Source: Collibacillus ludicampi
GTDB lineage: Bacteria > Bacillota > Bacilli > Tumebacillales > BOQE01
Length of the DNA: 64,000 nucleotides
Assembly (NCBI RefSeq): GCF_023705585.1
Contig: NZ_BOQE01000001.1
Location: 526,501-590,500 of the forward strand
Direction of reading: 5' to 3'
Shown here: positions 25,150-37,291 of the stretch, in pieces
Numbering within the stretch: the first letter of the stretch is position 1
How the letters are laid out: each line of letters opens with the position of its first letter
Notes under the pieces: model-generated
What the model saw: only the letters and a program-made list of their open reading frames with translations
Database searches by the model: none
What the model was told of the DNA's origin: nothing
Made by a program: the position numbers and the translations under genes

Positions 25150-26757
25150 TTACGTATTCTTTTTTATAGCCCGGCAGGTAAGCGGTAGGCTTTCTGACCA
25201 AGGGAGGAGCTGATCTAAGAAATCTTTGTTTTTAGTATCTAGGTTAGGTAGTTTCTTAAAGAGATAGGTAAGATAGGAATAGGGATGTAATCCATTTTCT
25301 TTCGCTGTCTCTATGATACTGTAAATGATCGCACTCGCCTTTGCACCACGCGGGGTATTGGAGAACAACCAGTTTTTGCGACCGATCACAAACGGTTTGA
25401 TCGCGCGTTCACTTCGGTTGTTATCGATCTCCAATCGCCCATCTTGTAAAAACGCCTCTAATTTTTCCCACTGGTTCAGACAATACAAGATGGCCTGACC
25501 GAACGCACTTTTGGGCAGCACTTTCGGTTTCTGGGTACGTAGCCATGCCAAAAAAGCATCCAACACAGGGCGGCTGCGTTCTTGACGGATTTGGTAACGT
25601 TCCTCAGGCGTGCACTCCTTTAAGTCCCGTTCAATCGCAAAGAGTTGATTGCAGAAATTGAGTCCCTCTTTGGCTGCTACCGGTGACGAGCGCTTCGATT
25701 CAGGCAGCGCCTTGAGTGCCTCATCGAATTTGCGCCGGGCGTGAGCCCAACAACCGACCAGGGCCACATCCGGTATCCCATGGTAACCCGCATAGCCATC
25801 GACGTGCAGGTATCCTTTGAAACCGGAAAGAAACTGACGCGGGTGTTTGCTCGCCCGTGTCGTCTGGTAGTCATAGAGGATGATGGGCGGATCTTCTCTC
25901 CCGGTACGGTACAGCCATAGATAAGAAGTTGTCTGTGCGGCCCGGCCCGGTTCACGGAGCACTTGTAAGGTCGTCTCGTCTGCGTGCAAGATGTCCCGCT
26001 TGAGTAAGTGCTCGCGCATGCGATCATAGAGCAGACTCAACCAGGTATTCGCTCCGTAGAGGATCCAGTTGGCCAGGGTCTGACGAGACAACTCAATCCC
26101 CAGGCGTGCAAACTGTTGCTCTTATCGGTAGAGAGGCATGCTCTCCACATATTTTTGACTCATGATATAGGCCATACTGGAAGCAGAAGCCAAACTCCCC
26201 GGAAAGACAGGGGCAGGCATAGAGGCTGTGACAATCGGCGTGCTTGTCTCCTCACGCTCGCAACGGCGGCAGGAGTAGACGTAACGGACATGCTTGACCA
26301 CTTTGACTTCGGCCGGAATAATCTTCAGCTCTTGCCGTATCTCCGTGCTCATTTCATGCAAAGAACCACCGCAACACGAACAAACCTGCTCCTCAGATGG
26401 CAGGCGATACTCGATCGTCTCCACAGGCAGGTTTTCAAGCTGGGTTTCCCGGTGGCCGCGTTTTTTCGAACGGCGATACGTAATGGTTTCGAGGGTAGGC
26501 TCCGCTACAGTGGGATCGGCCTCCACCTCGGCTTCGTTAAAAAGCTCAAGCTGATCGGCATTCGTTCGTTCGCTCGAAGAGCCAAACCGGCGCTGTTGGC
26601 TGAGGCGAAACTGCTCCTCATACCACTTCAGTTTGGCGGTCAGTTCCGCATTTTGCTTTTTCAGCCAATCGCATTCTTTTTGGAGATCTTCTATTGTAGT
26701 AGGGGTCGGGTTCAATGTATGATTTTTCATAATACTATTGATTTCGACAATGTACAA
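25150..26757 (-). pseudogene. tnpC: IS66 TnpC transposase interrupted by an in-frame stop
   Basis: The frame is that of the IS66 DDE transposase: leucine-zipper-like N-terminus, a zinc-finger region [11 protein letters not shown], then HADETTLQV and [10 protein letters not shown] with the catalytic Asp residues and [18 protein letters not shown] with the Glu. A TAA at 26122-26124 interrupts it after ESMPLYR; the same frame continues [19 protein letters not shown] without a shift. One base change (for example CAA to TAA) explains it. The likely start is ATG 26730, or TTG 26757. Confidence 0.88.
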
Positions 26758-26800
26758 CCAATTCCTTTTCCATTCAAAAAAAATAGGTGGATGTGTGGAA

Positions 26801-27157
26801 TCATACGATTGTGCGCGCGGTCACCGCAGGGTGAGCTTGTCGCTGTTCGAGAGATAAACCATCGAGTAGCCAACGCAACTCCCGACGACTGATTTTCAAC
26901 GGTACGGAGCTCGCTTCCGCTGGCCACTGAAATTTTCCTTTCTCTAACCGGCGGTAATAGAGCCAGAAACCGTTGTGTTCCCAGCGAAGAATCTTCAGTT
27001 TATCTCGCTTTCGATTGCAGAAAACGAAGAGACAGGGCGAGAAAGGGTCGAGTTCAAACTCTTCCTTGACGAGTACGGCTAACCCGTCAATCGATTTCCG
27101 TAGATCGGTGCTTCCGCAGGCCAGATACACCCGCTCTACGCTAGCTTCGCTTAGCAT
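26801..27157 (-). CDS. tnpB: IS66 accessory protein TnpB
   Basis: A 118-residue IS66 Orf2 protein with the family pattern [39 protein letters not shown] and [21 protein letters not shown]. Required for transposition in IS66-family elements; its biochemical role is not settled. Its start overlaps the end of tnpA by seven bases. Confidence 0.92.
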
Positions 27158-27468
27158 AACGTTTGGAGTGTTCGCACGACGTCTGCCAGCAGCGCGGGAT
27201 CAAAGCCAGGCTGGATTTCTACGGTTGCTTGCCCTACTCTAACGAGCAAGGTGTTTCTAGACTCGCCAGTCTGCCCGTCCACTTCTACCGATATCCATTT
27301 GGATGATGGGTTCACAGCGGCTTCTTTGTGTTCAATCTTCCGGAGCCAATACCGGAACTGATGAAGCTTCAACTGATGAGCTCTACACCATGCTGATGCA
27401 CTCTGTCCGCTAGCCCGAAAAGCAGCGATCCGTACCTCCCACTCTTTTCTCAATTCTACATGAGACAT
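27151..27468 (-). CDS. tnpA: IS66 accessory protein TnpA
   Basis: A 105-residue IS66 Orf1 protein with an N-terminal helix-turn-helix-like segment ASGQSASAWCRAHQL followed by HQFRYWLRKIE, and a beta-rich C-terminus. First gene of the IS66 operon, translationally coupled to tnpB. Intact. Confidence 0.85.
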   Translation of the reverse strand: MSHVELRKEWEVRIAAFRASGQSASAWCRAHQLKLHQFRYWLRKIEHKEAAVNPSSKWISVEVDGQTGESRNTLLVRVGQATVEIQPGFDPALLADVVRTLQTLC

Positions 27469-27580: not shown

Positions 27581-28843
27581 TTAGACTTGGAATCGATCAA
27601 CAATAACTTGAAGTTCTTGTGCCATCTTATTTAATGATGTTGCGGAAGAAGCGATTTCTTCCATAGAAGCCAAGGTTTCTTCGGTAGCAGCAGCCACCGT
27701 TTGTGTACCGGAAGCCGTTTCTTTAGCAATACGAGAAACTTCCGCTGCAGATGCTGTGACCTCTTCTATTCCGGCGGAAACTTCTTCTGAGGATGCGGAA
27801 ACCTCCTGAATTTGTGCAGCGATTTGTTTCATCGATTCGATAATCACACGGAAATTTTCCTCTGCTTCATGAACAGCTTGATAGCCTGCATTCACTTCAT
27901 TTTGCACTTTACTCATAGATTCCACAGATTTAGCCGTCTCATTCTGGATTTGTGAAATCAAATCCATAATTTCTTGGGCAGAGGAACCAGATTGTTCAGC
28001 AAGTTTGCGTACTTCTCCTGCCACGACTGTAAATCCATGCCCGTGTTCACCCGCTCTGGCCGCTTCAATAGCCGCGTTTAACGCAAGTAAGTTTGTTTGA
28101 TCCGCGATACCTTTGATCACGTCCAGAATCTTTCTGATTTCTTTTGAATGTTCATAAAGACGTTGAATAGATGTACTGCAATCGGAAACGGATGAAGTAA
28201 TCAAATCCATTTGATCCACAACTTTCTGCATGGAACGGTTTCCATCTTCGGCTTGTTTTGTTGTTTCCACGGATTCCTCTGAAACAGTGCTCATATTTTG
28301 GGCAATATTCTGCATACTCGTGGCCATGTCTTCTAAAGCCTTTGTATTCTCGTCTATTGCATCGGTCTGTGTTTCGGTTCCACTTGCCACTTGTTGCATA
28401 GTTGTCGCAATATGTTCTGTGGCCGCACTTGTTGATTCTGCACTCGCTGTCAGTTCTTCTGAAGATGCAGCAACTTGTAGAGAAATACTTTTCATTTGCT
28501 CTATGATGTCACGCCATTCTTTCAACATACGAGCCAATGTTTCTTCAAGCATTCCAACATCGTCTTTACTTCCTATCTTAATATTGTTAATCGCGAGATT
28601 TCCATGTGATACTTCCTGCAGAGCAATCGCTACGTTACTCAGGCGTTTCGTTAAAGAAAAAACGAAGTATGAATAAAATGCAATGCCCGCCATAATCACG
28701 ACAAAAAATGGGATAACTATTTGAAGACTTCCATGACTTAGCTTTACCTGATACCAGATTAGAACTAGCATCGGTACCAATATTAAAAGAGAGAGAAAGA
28801 AAAATTTTTGACGAATTGACAGACCAGCAATTTTCTTACTCAT
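27581..28843 (-). CDS. Methyl-accepting chemotaxis protein, sensorless
   Basis: A 420-residue chemoreceptor with two close membrane segments (about 15-30 and 42-62), HAMP, and the signalling coiled coil with tip [22 protein letters not shown]. There is no extracellular domain. Ends 28 bp before the IS66 right end, which now separates it from the terminator-like hairpin at 25079-25097. Confidence 0.9.
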
Positions 28844-28930: not shown

Positions 28931-29692
28931 CTATAAGATGTTATTAGTGTTTTGAAGAAAATTTTTTCCTGAAAAAAGGTGCCGAGACGGTTCTCCTAAT
29001 AAAAAACCTTGTCCAAAAGGAATACCTAACTCTTTTGCAACTGTTAAATCTTCAGGCTTTTCTATTCCTTCTAATATAATCTGTGAGTAATCTTTAGTAA
29101 AATCCATGAGAAGATTAATGAATCGTTGCTTCTTATTTGATAGAGATAAGTTTATAGAAAAATACCGATCTAATTTTATAAAATCAGGTTCAAGTTCAAT
29201 TATTTTTTGTAAATCTGAATCCCCTTTTCCTATATCATCGATAGCAATTAAAAAACCATAACTTCGTAGGTGAGATACAGCTTTATAGAGTAAGGTCATA
29301 TCTTCAATTTTTTTTGCTTCATTAATCTCGAATACGATTTGACTGCAACTGACTTTTAATTGTTTTGATAAGTGATCAAGGAAAGAAGGAAAGTCGGAGT
29401 TTAATAATGTAAATGGAAAAACATTCACAAATAACAGATTTTTATCCGTTTGATAGTGATCGTAAAAGTGAGAAATGGATTTAAAAATTGAATGAGTATC
29501 TAGTTCATAGAGATTGTTTGTTTTCATCGCTAATTGAAAAACATGTTCTGGATTCGAATAAATTTCTGAACGAAAAAAAGACTCAAATCCTAGTACTCGT
29601 AATTCGAACAGATTATAAATTGGTTGATATTCATGATAAAAATCTTTATTGTATACAAAATTATTTAACTTTAAAATAGTAATCTCCTCCAA
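28931..29692 (-). CDS. Divergent EAL-domain protein (c-di-GMP phosphodiesterase-like)
   Basis: A single EAL domain of about 253 residues. The signature motif reads FESF instead of EAL, but the metal and catalytic positions seem kept: Asn in VNVFP, Glu in FEINE, the two Asp in AIDDIGKGDSDL, Lys in DFIKLDR, Glu in LEGIE and Gln in PFGQGFLLGEP. It may hydrolyse or bind c-di-GMP. The gene is AT-rich relative to its neighbours. The start is unclear: the TTG at 29692 is part of the only ribosome site (GGAGGAG, 29684-29690), and no ATG follows; an ATT six bases downstream of that site is possible. Confidence 0.75.
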   Translation of the reverse strand: MEEITILKLNNFVYNKDFYHEYQPIYNLFELRVLGFESFFRSEIYSNPEHVFQLAMKTNNLYELDTHSIFKSISHFYDHYQTDKNLLFVNVFPFTLLNSDFPSFLDHLSKQLKVSCSQIVFEINEAKKIEDMTLLYKAVSHLRSYGFLIAIDDIGKGDSDLQKIIELEPDFIKLDRYFSINLSLSNKKQRFINLLMDFTKDYSQIILEGIEKPEDLTVAKELGIPFGQGFLLGEPSRHLFSGKNFLQNTNNIL

Positions 29693-29789: not shown

Positions 29790-29870
29790 TATTTTCGTTA
29801 ACTTTTTATTTTTTTAATTCATCGATTGAAGTGATATCTTGCAATAAGTTATTGATGTCAAATAAGATCA
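29790..29870. repeat. Direct repeat of the cheW 3' end
   Basis: This stretch aligns with about 30490-30575, covering the last 20 or so codons of cheW and the adjoining noncoding bases, with scattered differences. It marks the junction of the chemoreceptor remnant. Confidence 0.7.
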
Positions 29871-30334
29871 TCGCCGCGTTACGAGCAAGCAGATTGATTT
29901 GATCCGCTATATGTGTGATTGTTTGCACCATTTCCGAGATCTGGTTAGAACTTTCATCTAGTTTCTCAATCACGTCATTTAAAAATTTGGTGCTATCTTT
30001 CACGAGAACCAAACGATCCACCACATTTTGAACCATGTCGACACCGTCTTGAGACACTTTATTCACAGCGGAGCTTGCTTGTTCATCCGACGCCTTGAAG
30101 ATGGCTTGGAAAGCTTCCTCGTTTTGTTCCTGGGTACCGGCGGAAGCTTGTTCCAAGGTAAGGGCTAATTCTTGAATGGATTTTTCAGACCGATTTGATA
30201 CCTCGGACAATGTAGTCATCTCTCCTATTAAGCTGTTCAAGTTGCCTTTGATATTTGTTAATAACAAGATTCAGGAGACTTTCAGTTATTCCGTTGATGG
30301 ACGCGGAAAGTATCCCGACTTTACCGAACGACAT
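29806..30334 (-). pseudogene. Chemoreceptor remnant fused to the tail of CheW
   Basis: A fragment starting at ATG 30334 (MSFGKVGILSASINGITESL) needs a frameshift near 30270 to enter the frame of a chemoreceptor signalling arm (EKSIQELALTLEQASAGTQEQ). That arm breaks at the hairpin tip DQINLLARNAA and continues straight into FDINNLLQDITSIDELKK, almost the same as the end of CheW encoded at 30507. A deletion between a receptor gene and a second cheW copy explains it. Not expected to work as a receptor. Confidence 0.8.
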
Positions 30335-30506: not shown

Positions 30507-30974
30507 CTAGCTTTTTAATTTTTTCAGTTCATTGATTGAATTGATATCTTGCAACAAGTTATTGATGTCAATCAAGATCAAAATACGATCGTGCAGTTTC
30601 GCTACTCCCAGTAAAAAGGGTACTTCGTGGTCTTCCACAAGAGTCGGTTTATGAATGGAATCCGAAGGTATGTCAATCACATCAGTTGCCGCGTCGACCA
30701 CAAGCCCGATGGGGTTTCCGTCGATGCTCACTACGATGACGCGCGTGGATTCGTTCTCTTGCACTTCGCGCTGCAACAGCGCTTTCCGGAAATCGACGAT
30801 CGGAGTGATAACCCCACGCAAATTGATTACGCCCTTCACGTGTTCGGACATCTTTGGAACCGCAGTGATGGGTTGTATGCGCTCAATGGAAAGTACTTGA
30901 TCGATATGAAGTCCAAATTCTTCTGCTCCGACTCGAAAAACGACAGCTTTGAAGCTTTCTACTAACACTTCCAT
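30507..30974 (-). CDS. cheW: Chemotaxis coupling protein CheW
   Basis: A complete 155-residue CheW with the two SH3-like subdomains: FRVGAEEFGLHIDQVLSIERI, VPKMSEHVKGVINLRGVITPIVD and IGLVVDAATDVIDI. It links chemoreceptors to the kinase CheA. It stands alone here beside receptor genes and a receptor remnant, with no cheA in the window. Its 3' end and the bases after it (about 30490-30575) are repeated at about 29790-29870. Confidence 0.93.
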   Translation of the reverse strand: MEVLVESFKAVVFRVGAEEFGLHIDQVLSIERIQPITAVPKMSEHVKGVINLRGVITPIVDFRKALLQREVQENESTRVIVVSIDGNPIGLVVDAATDVIDIPSDSIHKPTLVEDHEVPFLLGVAKLHDRILILIDINNLLQDINSINELKKLKS

Positions 30975-31166: not shown

Positions 31167-31188
31167 TAACAAAAGAGCCATTTTGTTA
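31167..31188 (+). repeat. Left inverted recombination-site candidate
   Basis: TAACAAAA (31167-31174), spacer GAGCCA, TTTTGTTA (31181-31188): an 8-bp inverted arm pair around six bases, the geometry of tyrosine-recombinase core sites. Confidence 0.75.
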
Positions 31189-31252
31189 GATTTTCATAGA
31201 ATATAAATATATTGGTCTAAATCCTTGATATCATTAGGGTTATTTATTGTTA

Positions 31253-31281
31253 TTGAATAATCATAGTAGGATTGTTAATAT
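31253..31281 (+). promoter_or_regulatory. Promoter of recombinase gene inside the cassette
   Basis: TTGAAT (31253-31258), a 17-base spacer and TAATAT (31276-31281) precede the recombinase gene by about 50 bases. Confidence 0.6.
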
Positions 31282-31332
31282 AACATATTGAATTTTATTA
31301 CAGATTTTATCTAACATTTTGAGGTGGCGTCA

Positions 31333-31896
31333 GTGTCTAACAAACTTGGAGCAAATGCAGTTGAACCAATTCGAGATATGGAAAAAATTATGGAAATAAA
31401 AAATTATTTACTCCGACGATCCTATCGTGATTATTTCTTGTTTGTTTTTGGAATTAATTCTGGGCTTAGAATAAGCGATATTTTGCCCTTACGAGTCATG
31501 GATGTTAAATACACCAAGTATTTAATAATCAAAGAAAAAAAGACTGGAAACATTAGAAAAACTATCATAACACCTGCTTTAAAAAGTGAAATTGAGAAAT
31601 ACACGTACAGAATGGCTGATTCTGAGTATTTATTTCCATCACAAAAAGGAAATAAGCCAATTAGCAGGATTCAAGCGTGGCAAATCATTCACAATGCGGC
31701 AAAAGCTTGTGGAGTTGAAGGAGCAATCGGTACGCATACTCTCCGCAAAACATTTGGGTATCATTTTTACCAACAAACTAAGGATGTTGCTATGTTGCAA
31801 TATATTTTCGGTCATTCTAGTCCATCTATAACATTGAGATATATCGGAATCAATGACGATATGGTAGATAAAGCTTTAGAGAAATTTTCTTTATAA
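31333..31896 (+). CDS. Small catalytic-domain tyrosine recombinase
   Basis: A 187-residue tyrosine recombinase with only the catalytic domain. The full active site is visible: Arg in NSGLRISDILPL, Lys in IKEKKTGNIRK, His-X-X-Arg in GTHTLRKTFGYHF, His in FGHSSPSITL and the nucleophile Tyr in LRYIGI. The N-terminal SAM-like DNA-binding domain of XerC/D or phage integrases is absent apart from about 20 residues. GTG 31333 follows GAGGTG by six bases; the upstream GTG at 31324 lies in that site. Codon use is AT-rich, suggesting recent arrival. Confidence 0.88.
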   Translation: MSNKLGANAVEPIRDMEKIMEIKNYLLRRSYRDYFLFVFGINSGLRISDILPLRVMDVKYTKYLIIKEKKTGNIRKTIITPALKSEIEKYTYRMADSEYLFPSQKGNKPISRIQAWQIIHNAAKACGVEGAIGTHTLRKTFGYHFYQQTKDVAMLQYIFGHSSPSITLRYIGINDDMVDKALEKFSL

Positions 31897-31970
31897 AAAA
31901 TTTAACGAAGTATGTCGATTTTTGTACTAAAAGAGTTTATAATAAAAACTAGATAATTATGTAATAATAA

Positions 31971-31994
31971 ATAACAAAATGGCTCTTTTGTTAT
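31971..31994 (-). repeat. Right inverted recombination-site candidate
   Basis: ATAACAAAA, spacer TGGCTC, TTTTGTTAT: 9-bp arms around six bases. Its central 22 bp are the exact reverse complement of the left site. The IS4-type element begins three bases further on. Confidence 0.75.
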
Positions 31995-31996
31995 AT

Positions 31997-33566
31997 ACAG
32001 GACTTATGCACTTCGTGGAATAAGTTGGAACCATCCTAATGAGATCGTTGTGGGCAATAAGATTCTCAAAGTTCTTTCGAGATAACGGGCTTTTGGAGTA
32101 TACTGAAGAAGAACTTCGCCATTGGCAAGTTCTCTTATTTCGGTGATAGTTCCAAGAAATGCTCGGATCACTTGGCCGTGGGTGAGCTTTTCTTCCGGAG
32201 CTATTGTTTTATTGTGGATCTCGGCTAATAAAACGAGTAACGTGTGGGCGCACATCTGAAGAGTAAGATAGGCCTCCACATGATGTTCATTGGTCGAATG
32301 ACAAGCCTCAAAAGCCAGATCCTGCTTGACTTCTCGGAAGAACGTTTCAATCCCCCAGCGAGCCTCATAGGCGGAAAGCACCTCTTCAGGCGAAGCCGAC
32401 AGATCACCGGTTACAAGAAGAAAAGCTCGATTTCTGGTGGTAGTTTCTTCTCTTTGGCTGCGATGTCCTGAAACGGCAACCACCTGAACCTGTTTATAGA
32501 TCGCCAACCCTGTGGACTCGTCTTCGATCTTGATGTACAGCTTCTTGGAGGCGATTTTGCGGATCGTATGGTAGGAGTCTCCTAACAATTGACGGAGAAC
32601 CTGTTTTGCGGAGAGCCGCTCGTAAGCTCCTCGATCTGTGGCACGTTTCCCAGGCTTCAGGGTATAAAACACCATGTTCGACTTGGCCTTGCTGACAATG
32701 CGGAATCCCAGTTCCTCCATTGCGAGTAGAAACGGACGAACCAAATACCAACTGTCCATCGCCACAAAACAACCGCCAACATGAGGGGCAATAGCTACCA
32801 ATTCTCCCAGCATTTGTAGAGCCATTTGCCATTTGTTCAACTGATTTTCTCCCGGCTTCCAGAAACGGGCGTTGATCATGTAACTGGGACCTTGAAAGCG
32901 AGCGGCGTACAAGGCGACTACGTTCTGAGCGTAGACATAGCGTTTCGTTGCGTGATCCAGAAGTTTTGAAACAAACGGGATTTTGCGAGAATGTTCATGG
33001 AGAATCATGCTATCGTCAACAGCCAGTACATCTTGGGACGTTAAACGGCAATTCGGTCGATCCTGCAGAGTTCGAAGCCGTTCTTCATTAAAGAGATCCC
33101 ATCGGAACGGACGAGTCAGCAGGCGACTGAAAGCAGATTGGCTAACACGGCCTACAATTTTCGAGACTACATCATCTGTGGACACCCATTTTGCCGTTTG
33201 GAGAACAGAAGTTTTTTGAGCAAACCAACCGGCAATCAGAGCAAATACCAAAGCCCAGGTAGAAGCACCGGAGCGCTTCATGATCCCGGCGCGAGAGAGC
33301 GCCAGGGAAAGGTCGAGATCATCCCAGAGTTTTTTCAGAGCAAGAAAGCCTCCACTTCCGAGTTGACTAGTACGGTCAAACGAGAGTTTCATAATACCAC
33401 CTACATCGCTTCAAGATAGGCTTTTAGAAGTGCCTTCATCGCGATTGTGGTGGTGATTCAAAAAAGTCAAGAGATCATTTGTTCTATTTTCAGGGAACAA
33501 AAAAGGTAGTTTATCTAAGTCTCTTAGATTTCTACCAGTTTATGGAGTGAACTGCATAACTCCTGT
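31997..33566 (-). mobile_element. IS4-family insertion sequence, apparently intact
   Basis: The ends ACAGGACTTATGCACTTC (31997-32014) and the reverse complement of 33549-33566 agree at 16 of 18 positions. One full-length transposase gene fills the interior. I see no clear target duplication (flanks TTTGTTATAT and CACTTACTAA). The insertion is only three bases from the right site of the recombinase cassette. Confidence 0.85.
32004..33392 (-). CDS. IS4-family DDE transposase
   Basis: A full-length 462-residue transposase. The acidic triad is seen in VLAVDDSMILHEHSRK, CFVAMDSWYLVRP and YEARWGIETFFREVKQDL; the last fits the IS4 signature Y-(2)-R-(3)-E-(6)-K exactly. ATG follows AGGTGGTATT. No frameshift or stop is seen, so it may be active. 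The stop codon lies within the left terminal repeat. Confidence 0.93.
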   Translation of the reverse strand: MKLSFDRTSQLGSGGFLALKKLWDDLDLSLALSRAGIMKRSGASTWALVFALIAGWFAQKTSVLQTAKWVSTDDVVSKIVGRVSQSAFSRLLTRPFRWDLFNEERLRTLQDRPNCRLTSQDVLAVDDSMILHEHSRKIPFVSKLLDHATKRYVYAQNVVALYAARFQGPSYMINARFWKPGENQLNKWQMALQMLGELVAIAPHVGGCFVAMDSWYLVRPFLLAMEELGFRIVSKAKSNMVFYTLKPGKRATDRGAYERLSAKQVLRQLLGDSYHTIRKIASKKLYIKIEDESTGLAIYKQVQVVAVSGHRSQREETTTRNRAFLLVTGDLSASPEEVLSAYEARWGIETFFREVKQDLAFEACHSTNEHHVEAYLTLQMCAHTLLVLLAEIHNKTIAPEEKLTHGQVIRAFLGTITEIRELANGEVLLQYTPKARYLERTLRILLPTTISLGWFQLIPRSA

Positions 33567-35390: not shown

Positions 35391-36457
35391 ATGAAGTATA
35401 AAACGAATCAACGAATTCTGCAAATCACAGAATCGACGTTAGTCGTTGGGGCAGATATCGCTAAGAAAACGCATATTGCCCGCGCCATGGATTTTCGTGG
35501 GGTTGAGCTTGGTAAGCCTTGCACTTTTGAAAACACACGGCATGGACTTATGAGTCTCCTGCATTGGCTGAATACGCTCAAGGATCTCCACGACAAATCA
35601 CGGATATCTACGCAGAACTCCGCGTGGTCATGGTACAAAGGGATCAACTAAATGGGGATCTAAATCGCGTCAAGGGAAGAATTCATAATTGGTTGGATCG
35701 CTTCTTCCCAGAGTATATCCAGGTCTTTAAAGACTGGGAAGGGAAAGCGTCTCTATTAACCCTGAAAAAATTCCCCCTTCCACAAGATGTGGCGGATATG
35801 AGCGCCGATGAGATTGTTTCCGTGTGGAAGACGGAAGTGAAGCGGGCCGTAGGCCGGAAAAGAGCAGAGAGTCTCATTTGGCATGCCAAGCAATCGATTG
35901 GTCTTACGGAAGGAATCGAGTCTGTTCGATTGGAGTTAAAGTTTCTCCTGGAACAATATGAAATGCTCGGTCGGCAAATGGAAGATCTGATGCAGAGAAT
36001 TCAGCAACTTCTTGAACAGATCCCCGGTGCCAAGGAAATGATGACAGTACCTGGGGTGGGATGGGTGACTGTAGCAGGCTTTTTAGCGGAAGTAGGGGAT
36101 CTTTCTTCCTATGAGGATGGGCGACAAATCATTCGGTTAGCAGGGCTGAATCTCAAAGAAAACAGTTCGGGCAAACACAAAGGGAAAACGAGGATCACCA
36201 AAAGAGGCCGGCCTCGCCTGCGATCCTTGCTTTTTAAGTGCGCTATGGTACTCGTCGCCAAAAACGAGCAATTGAAAACCCTGCATCAATATTTAACCAC
36301 TCGCCCACAAAATCCGTTAAAAAAGAAACAGTCCATCATCGCCATATGCGGAAAAATCGCCCGAATTCTCTTTTGTTTAGGACGTAAAAGGTTGTCTTAC
36401 GATGCACAGAAAGTATTAGGTTCTATACAGCAAAAATCGTTACAGAATGCAGCTTAA
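35391..36457 (+). pseudogene. IS110-family transposase with internal deletion and frameshift
   Basis: The N-terminus MKYKTNQRILQITESTLVVG, with the first catalytic Asp in GADIAKKTHIARA, runs to about 35580 and then jumps, in another frame, to QITDIYAELRVVMVQRDQLN. The rest is a normal IS110 C-terminal domain with IPGAKEMMTVPGVGWVTVAGF and SGKHKGKTRITKRGRPRLRS. About 90 residues, including the other acidic residues of the DEDD site, are missing. Hence the copy is dead by itself. ATG 35391 has AGAGGAGGTA upstream. Confidence 0.88.
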
Positions 36458-36871: not shown

Positions 36872-37028
36872 ATGGCTCAATATCAGATTAACCTAAACGA
36901 TGAAATTTTGCCGGTTTATTTCAGAGGGATGAAGCGGTAGCTCGATTGATCGAGCAAGTATTGAATCAGGTCCTTCAGTCCCAGGTTACAGAACAGCTGA
37001 AAGCAGCTCCGTATGAGCGTACCGAGGA
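36872..37028 (+). pseudogene. N-terminal remnant of an IS256-family transposase
   Basis: ATG 36872 behind GAGGGAGGA starts MAQYQINLNDEIL, the beginning of IS256/Mutator transposases. A frameshift near 36920 is needed to continue as RDEAVARLIEQVLNQVLQSQ and VTEQLKAAPYERTEE. At about 37028 it breaks off and an integrase sequence follows. About 50 of roughly 400 residues remain. Confidence 0.8.
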
Positions 37029-37291
37029 ATGTCAAACGGGCTGGTGTTCCTGTTTTGTCGCCTCATGCGCTACGACATACACATGCCGTCCATTTACTTG
37101 AAGCCGGTGCAAATATAAAATACGTGTCCGAGCGACTTGGACACGCGAGCGTCAAAATCACTGCGGACACGTATTTGCATGTTACAAAGAAAATTGAAGA
37201 TGATGCGCTTACCCTTTACGAGAGCTATTTAGAAAACCGGGCAAAAAACGGGCAAGCTGAAATTTCGGAACCGAAAACCCTTGATGCGTAA
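37013..37291 (+). pseudogene. C-terminal fragment of a phage-type tyrosine integrase
   Basis: From about 37028 the frame reads RAGVPVLSPHALRHTHAVHL, EAGANIKYVSERLGHASVKI and TADTYLHVT, the last third of an ICE/phage integrase with His-X-X-Arg, the Gly-His motif and the catalytic Tyr. The first Arg and the N-terminal domains are missing, and it is joined to the IS256 remnant. It is unrelated in detail to the small recombinase at 31333. Confidence 0.85.

Follow-up and report, generated by a model that had tools for sequence, protein, structure and literature searches.

A segment of 827 bp (31167-31993) is probably an autonomous cassette for phase variation, equivalent to Hin of Salmonella but built on a tyrosine recombinase. 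This reading is based on two identical inverted sites, on a second genomic copy whose similarity ends at those sites, and on spacers that match within every site pair of the family. It is further supported by a segment interior that is inverted between sister species, by opposite cassette orientations among other relatives, and by a TATAAT element facing outward from most segments. The outward-read genes for c-di-GMP and chemotaxis beside the cassettes, and site pairs lacking a recombinase in front of EAL-MCP and MCP operons, point the same way. Positions without a prefix are those of the window, the whole 64-kb stretch of DNA analysed (C1:526501-590500 of a 4.09-Mb genome).

Anatomy of the cassette and its recombinase

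The cassette is bounded by two 22-bp sites with an 8-6-8 layout (Table 1). Exact matching upheld the original prediction of two identical inverted sites and moved the end of the feature from 31994 to 31993. The spacer of the right site is the reverse complement of the left-site spacer, GAGCCA. No further match to the site with up to three mismatches was found in the 64-kb window (none expected, from 100 dinucleotide shuffles). Genome-wide, just four sites rise above background, two for each of the two cassettes, and other sites with one mismatch occur at about the control level.

Table 1. Coordinates of the cassette, its neighbours and a small protein family found near related switches.
Feature	Position	Strand	Evidence or remark
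Left recombination site, TAACAAAA-GAGCCA-TTTTGTTA	31167-31188	+	Exact match
Right recombination site, exact inverted copy of the left	31972-31993	-	Exact match
Weak hairpin	31223-31239	+	-4.2 kcal/mol, no better than shuffles; position of the terminator-like hairpin of relatives
TAACATATTGAAT, resembles a half site	31281-31293	+	Alignment of cassette left ends; 5' of the recombinase gene
Tyrosine recombinase, 190 aa, GTG start, catalytic domain only	31324-31896	+	PF00589 and XerC/XerA alignment
Putative outward promoter, TCGATT-N17-TATAAT	31915-31943	+	28 bp inside the right site; comparison between cassettes
cheW, first outward gene left of the cassette	30507-30974	-	PF01584, E 3.1e-35; 193 bp from the site
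MCP signalling-domain fragment	29806-30267	-	PF00015, E 1.2e-6
EAL protein, putative c-di-GMP phosphodiesterase	28931-29692	-	PF00563, E 2.3e-39
Methyl-accepting chemotaxis protein (MCP)	27581-28843	-	PF00015, E 2e-52
IS701/IS4-like transposase, right flank, outside the cassette	32004-33392	-	PF01609 and NCBIfam IS701, below curated cutoff
Members of the 63-79 aa protein family	L254:4469-4705, L256:5459-5695, L255:4682-4873, L207:3646-3834		

The only Pfam domain matched by the enclosed gene product is PF00589 (residues 18-177, E 1.7e-25). Residues 32-188 align to residues 118-276 of the XerC-like 4a8e, which is the catalytic half, and the Arg, His-x-x-Arg, Gly-His and Tyr motifs are kept in alignments to 4a8e and 5hxy. 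The protein thus belongs to the tyrosine recombinase superfamily (PF00589; R...HxxR...H...Y), and it had been correctly described as a catalytic domain with all catalytic residues. It falls outside the Xer equivalogs, for which the C-terminal part alone matched (NCBIfam bits of 95.8 against a cutoff of 220 for XerA, 76.6 against 329.6 for XerD and 59.3 against 335 for XerC). It is also outside the FimB and FimE invertases (51 and 47 bits against cutoffs of 221 and 222); NCBIfam invertase models match it at E of about 1e-12 to 1e-13. With PF00589 as its sole match, it is not a serine invertase of the Hin/Gin type. Elsewhere in the window, a C-terminal 92-aa fragment of another tyrosine recombinase (37013-37291, +; PF00589) is apparently a remnant.

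The element TAACATATTGAAT occurs at 109-115 bp from the left end in nine cassettes. Its sequence suggests that it may be half of the site or an imperfect version of it, and it may provide an autoregulatory or accessory binding site. An imperfect site is present at a similar place in L031. The recombinase promoter previously placed at 31253-31281 is a weak consensus match, absent from our scan hits. The terminator-like hairpin at the left end is strong in L208, L212 and L216; its z-score is -8 in G037 and about -3 in G017 and G032, and is not significant in the window copy or in G014.

We identified a candidate promoter near the right end. Of the 16 segments, 13 have an outward TATAAT in the interval 25-40 bp inward of the right site, versus 0.57 expected from shuffling; the distances are 27-37 bp, and the same test at the left end gave one of 16. 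A hexamer close to TCGATT or TAGATT stands exactly 17 bp 5' of TATAAT in eight of those 13 segments. Position and 17-bp spacing are common to relatives and to site pairs without a recombinase, and the signature is absent from G040, G022 and G021. Generic scans of the window copy for promoters and terminators gave no excess over shuffles and no terminator-like signal, and the promoter claim therefore rests on comparison between cassettes. On that same comparison, the Hin-like layout of a recombinase gene and an outward promoter between inverted sites is present here. The recombinase had been proposed as the sole cargo; the segment carries this putative promoter too, and its neighbours are c-di-GMP and chemotaxis genes.

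The cassette family, its spacers and natural inversion

A second copy of the recombinase gene is present in the same genome (C1:2894279-2894845, 98% protein identity), with its own matched site pair and the spacer GGCCCA. Nucleotide similarity of the two copies ends exactly at the sites and the flanks are unrelated; a PilZ gene lies 54 bp from the right site of the second copy. A collection search identified cassettes of the same anatomy in several lineages of Bacillota (Aneurinibacillus, Paenibacillus, Cohnella, Tepidibacillus and relatives), with one or two per genome. For comparison we used 14 cassettes (759-861 bp) and two site pairs that lack a recombinase, here called satellites.

In each of the 16 pairs, the 6-bp spacer of one site is the exact reverse complement of the other, though the set includes 13 different spacers; when spacers were shuffled among pairs, no more than eight matches arose in any of 100,000 trials. 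Such concerted change would be the expected product of repeated strand exchange between the two sites. The arms depart from consensus in four of 32 cases for inner arms and in 14 of 32 for outer arms. It is conceivable, if speculative, that exchange of cassettes between site pairs is one route of spread, which would fit the variable outer arms. Where switches coexist in one genome their spacers differ (GAGCCA/GGCCCA, TAGACA/TGGTCT and TAGACA/TAAACA). From general knowledge of tyrosine recombinases, differing spacers would be expected to keep these switches from recombining with each other.

Inversion is evident in relatives. A satellite in A. aneurinilyticus (G015, L254:5045-5410) corresponds to one in G037, a sister species (L256:4830-5190). 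The flanks of the two are co-linear (81 and 87%), whereas the 322-bp interior aligns only when inverted, with 81.4% over its full length and a score of 342; without inversion the score is 27, and shuffles reach no more than 42. The left site of the G037 satellite is partly deleted, and thus this copy may be locked. Among complete cassettes, the recombinase gene points to an EAL gene and away from a GGDEF gene in G014 and G037. In G040 it points to the GGDEF gene, between EAL and GGDEF genes homologous to those of G014 and G037 (43-52% identity). In A. terranovensis (G018:C26, L255:4953-5709), a run of N starts and ends exactly at a matched inverted pair (TAGTCA/TGACTA). This is suggestive of an assembly gap caused by mixed orientations; since the collection also masks some stretches, it could instead be a masked stretch, or a gap holding a second recombinase or cassette. 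Both orientations are therefore found in relatives, and the window copy is seen in one. The original prediction of a self-inverting cassette gains its support from these relatives, in which the segment lies in opposite orientations between such sites.

The cassette recombinases cluster in a tree, with a sister group from Domibacillus, Anoxybacillus and Bacillus badius that is partly plasmid-borne. The sister group mostly has a palindromic 11-6-11 site 5' of the recombinase in place of an inverted pair. Among the relatives of 45-60% identity that were sampled, no convincing inverted pair around the recombinase was found. In plasmid-type relatives (L202, L030, L032-L035 and L037) the palindrome is ATGCAACATAA-N6-TTATGTTGCAT, often perfect and sometimes present more than once per contig; together with the recombinase it probably forms a system of this family that resolves plasmid multimers. 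A divergent relative in a Paenibacillaceae MAG (L027:2910-3668) has the sites TTACAAAA-TGAATG-TTTTGTAA and lacks signalling neighbours; its right site is embedded in a longer palindrome, AAGCCCGTTTTACAAAA-N6-TTTTGTAAAACGGGCTT.

Neighbouring genes and a proposed switch

On the left, cheW leads a group of genes (cheW-mcp'-EAL-mcp) transcribed away from the cassette. The EAL protein is 55% identical to the cassette-adjacent EAL protein of G006, and the complete MCP shares 72% identity with the MCP that follows the satellite of A. danicus; both MCPs come after an EAL gene. On the right, 11 bp separate the site from the end of the IS701/IS4-like transposase gene. This gene is the single full copy in the genome, and no terminal repeats of the element were found. 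The C-terminus of the MCP fragment (DINNLLQDITSIDELKK) nearly repeats that of the adjacent CheW (DINNLLQDINSINELKK), which looks like a duplication or recombination scar in the operon. An IS66-like gene set (25150-27468) and an apparently split IS110-like transposase (35391-36457) were recognized from translations only, and the surroundings of the cassette are apparently insertion-rich.

Across the family, the flanking outward genes encode EAL, GGDEF, PilZ, HD-GYP-type HD, MCP, CheW or sensor kinase proteins (Pfam). The cassette of G006 has an EAL gene 27 bp to its left and a histidine kinase gene 39 bp to its right; in G014, G037 and G040 the cassette separates a GGDEF gene from an EAL gene. 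In G016 and G018 the neighbour is an HD-GYP-type gene with an MCP gene behind it (the HD gene is broken in G018). G017, G019 and G032 have a chemotaxis operon whose first genes are a small ORF and an MCP gene. The satellites lie 5' of EAL-MCP and MCP operons. Proteins of 63-79 aa, about 33-37% identical between loci, are encoded beside switches or neighbouring MCP genes.

We infer that the cassette's own recombinase is the inverting enzyme. It would act on both inverted, spacer-matched sites and flip the segment, its own gene included. The sigma-A-type promoter predicted inside the right site would be active and read outward, and each flip would change which of the two flanking gene groups is transcribed from it. 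The group facing the promoter would be ON and the other OFF, with the non-promoter end often insulated by a terminator-like hairpin; this arrangement is suggested by TATAAT at one end and by the hairpin at the left end of several relatives. In the present orientation the promoter would read into the IS-like element. The cheW-mcp'-EAL-mcp group is thus predicted to be OFF with respect to the cassette promoter until inversion turns it ON. The earlier suggestion that inversion changes transcription toward cheW would fit an outward promoter conserved at that end. The genomes with satellites also encode a cassette recombinase of the same family, which suggests that this enzyme would serve them in trans.

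Some observations count against this reading. The -35 element of the putative promoter is weak, and the 193-bp leader 5' of cheW may hold a promoter of its own. At four loci with MCP/CheW operons all cassettes have the same direction, and the divergent L027/G021 cassette is an exception in lacking signalling neighbours.

In Aneurinibacillus, a cassette between a diguanylate cyclase and a phosphodiesterase gene possibly poses an either/or choice. More tentatively, and with the balance tipping slightly to the doubtful side, we consider a horizontally dispersed self-inverting family dedicated to c-di-GMP and chemotaxis, with the Aneurinibacillus cyclase/phosphodiesterase toggle, satellites served in trans and spacer-isolated switches. 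If true, populations of the spore-formers would divide heritably into c-di-GMP-making and c-di-GMP-breaking cells, or into cells with a chemotaxis operon on and off, through a single DNA flip and without a separate recombinase locus. Phase variation with the recombinase inside the cassette would extend from the serine recombinase Hin to a small tyrosine recombinase. The cassette would also offer a small inversion module that is complete in itself and comes with no fewer than 13 natural spacers, and it would become testable whether spacer identity alone isolates coexisting switches.

Alternative explanations and known systems

The segment could instead be a one-gene mobile unit resembling an insertion sequence, with the sites as its ends, targets like AACAAAA-N6-TTTTGTT and inversion as a by-product. 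Two copies between unrelated flanks in one genome, similarity that ends at the sites, occurrence in several genera and outer arms more variable than inner ones would fit, but we consider this unlikely. Copies number just one or two per genome, the two spacers of a pair are in inverted and not in direct orientation, almost every neighbour is a c-di-GMP or chemotaxis gene, and site pairs without a recombinase exist and invert. A family-level search for an empty locus by the EAL gene returned satellites and no empty site, and no target duplications were seen at cassette flanks. The dispersed copies, target duplications and empty sites of insertion sequences and transposons are thus not the pattern found, and the one-gene mobile unit of the original prediction is not indicated in the form of a classical transposon. 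We rejected that form as the main reading on low copy number, signalling neighbours, inverted spacers and recombinase-less pairs. The cassette has dispersed nonetheless, as its second genomic copy is beside a PilZ gene. Tn916-like coupling sequences were also rejected, because the spacers are mutually reverse-complementary in every pair, not unrelated or directly repeated.

It is very improbable that the cassette is the chromosomal remnant of a plasmid-derived dimer-resolving recombinase with duplicated sites. The sister clade, with its plasmid-borne members and mostly upstream palindromic sites, speaks for such a history; the chromosomal cassettes have an inverted, spacer-matched pair around gene and promoter, their signalling neighbours are conserved, and some relatives are naturally inverted. 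A plasmid resolution system is plausible as the origin of the cassette, not as its present function. We give hardly any weight to the possibility that the sites serve the recombinase gene as terminators or operators and are not sites of recombination. Such a role would fit the inverted-repeat form of each site and the possibility of autoregulation by recombinases, but the window copy has no terminator-like signal, the spacers co-vary in exact inverted register, homology stops at the sites, and a segment interior between such sites occurs in inverted form. We therefore retain the phase-variation cassette as our reading.

The statement that no such layout had been described was too strong, as Hin (PMC9368917) and, in passages of a 2018 survey, a segment of Providencia stuartii (PMC5903667) share the general layout. 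In the open-access literature we did not find this cassette family, the Aneurinibacillus and Paenibacillus switches or the GGDEF/EAL either/or arrangement. As those passages describe it, the P. stuartii segment is a putative fimbrial switch of 844 bp, in which inverted repeats likewise enclose a recombinase ORF (PMC5903667). It differs in its 14-bp imperfect repeats, its fimbrial locus and its proteobacterial host, and the passage on it gives no analysis of family, promoter or spacer (PMC5903667). The survey passages also report that invertible sites of Clostridia have signalling and chemotaxis genes as neighbours (PMC5903667).

In C. difficile, the tyrosine recombinase RecV is described in the same passages and elsewhere as acting in trans on several inverted-repeat promoter switches (PMC5903667, PMC9286219), and an invertible promoter controls the c-di-GMP phosphodiesterase gene pdcB (Cdi2; PMC9286219). 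As far as these descriptions go, inverted-repeat promoter switches 5' of c-di-GMP and motility genes are common ground with the cassette (PMC5903667, PMC9286219). In C. difficile, however, the recombinase gene is outside the switch, and the pdcB switch is 174 bp with imperfect 19-bp repeats and a recombinase that is not settled (PMC9286219). The likeness of the cassette recombinase to RecV would be functional only.

Like FimB and FimE, which act on fimS of E. coli, the enzyme is a short tyrosine recombinase of catalytic-domain type, and it would be an invertase that uses inverted repeats. The fimB and fimE genes lie outside the inverted segment fimS. The scores of 47-51 against cutoffs of 221-222 set the cassette recombinase apart from both. 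PsrA of the Streptococcus pneumoniae cod locus is a tyrosine recombinase encoded within the locus that it inverts, but there several inverted-repeat pairs shuffle hsdS coding sequence and there is no promoter cassette (PMC7096588).

The closest parallel in layout is the Hin segment of Salmonella (hixL-hin-hixR with the fljBA promoter), in which the recombinase is inside the inverting segment (PMC9368917), given as 966 bp in the survey passages (PMC5903667). In both, inverted sites delimit a segment of comparable length that contains a recombinase gene and an outward promoter, the latter putative in the cassette (PMC9368917). Hin belongs to the serine recombinases and has an enhancer bound by Fis, whereas the cassette has a small tyrosine recombinase and 8-6-8 sites, and genes on both flanks are possible targets. 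The cassette would work like Hin but falls outside the Hin family.
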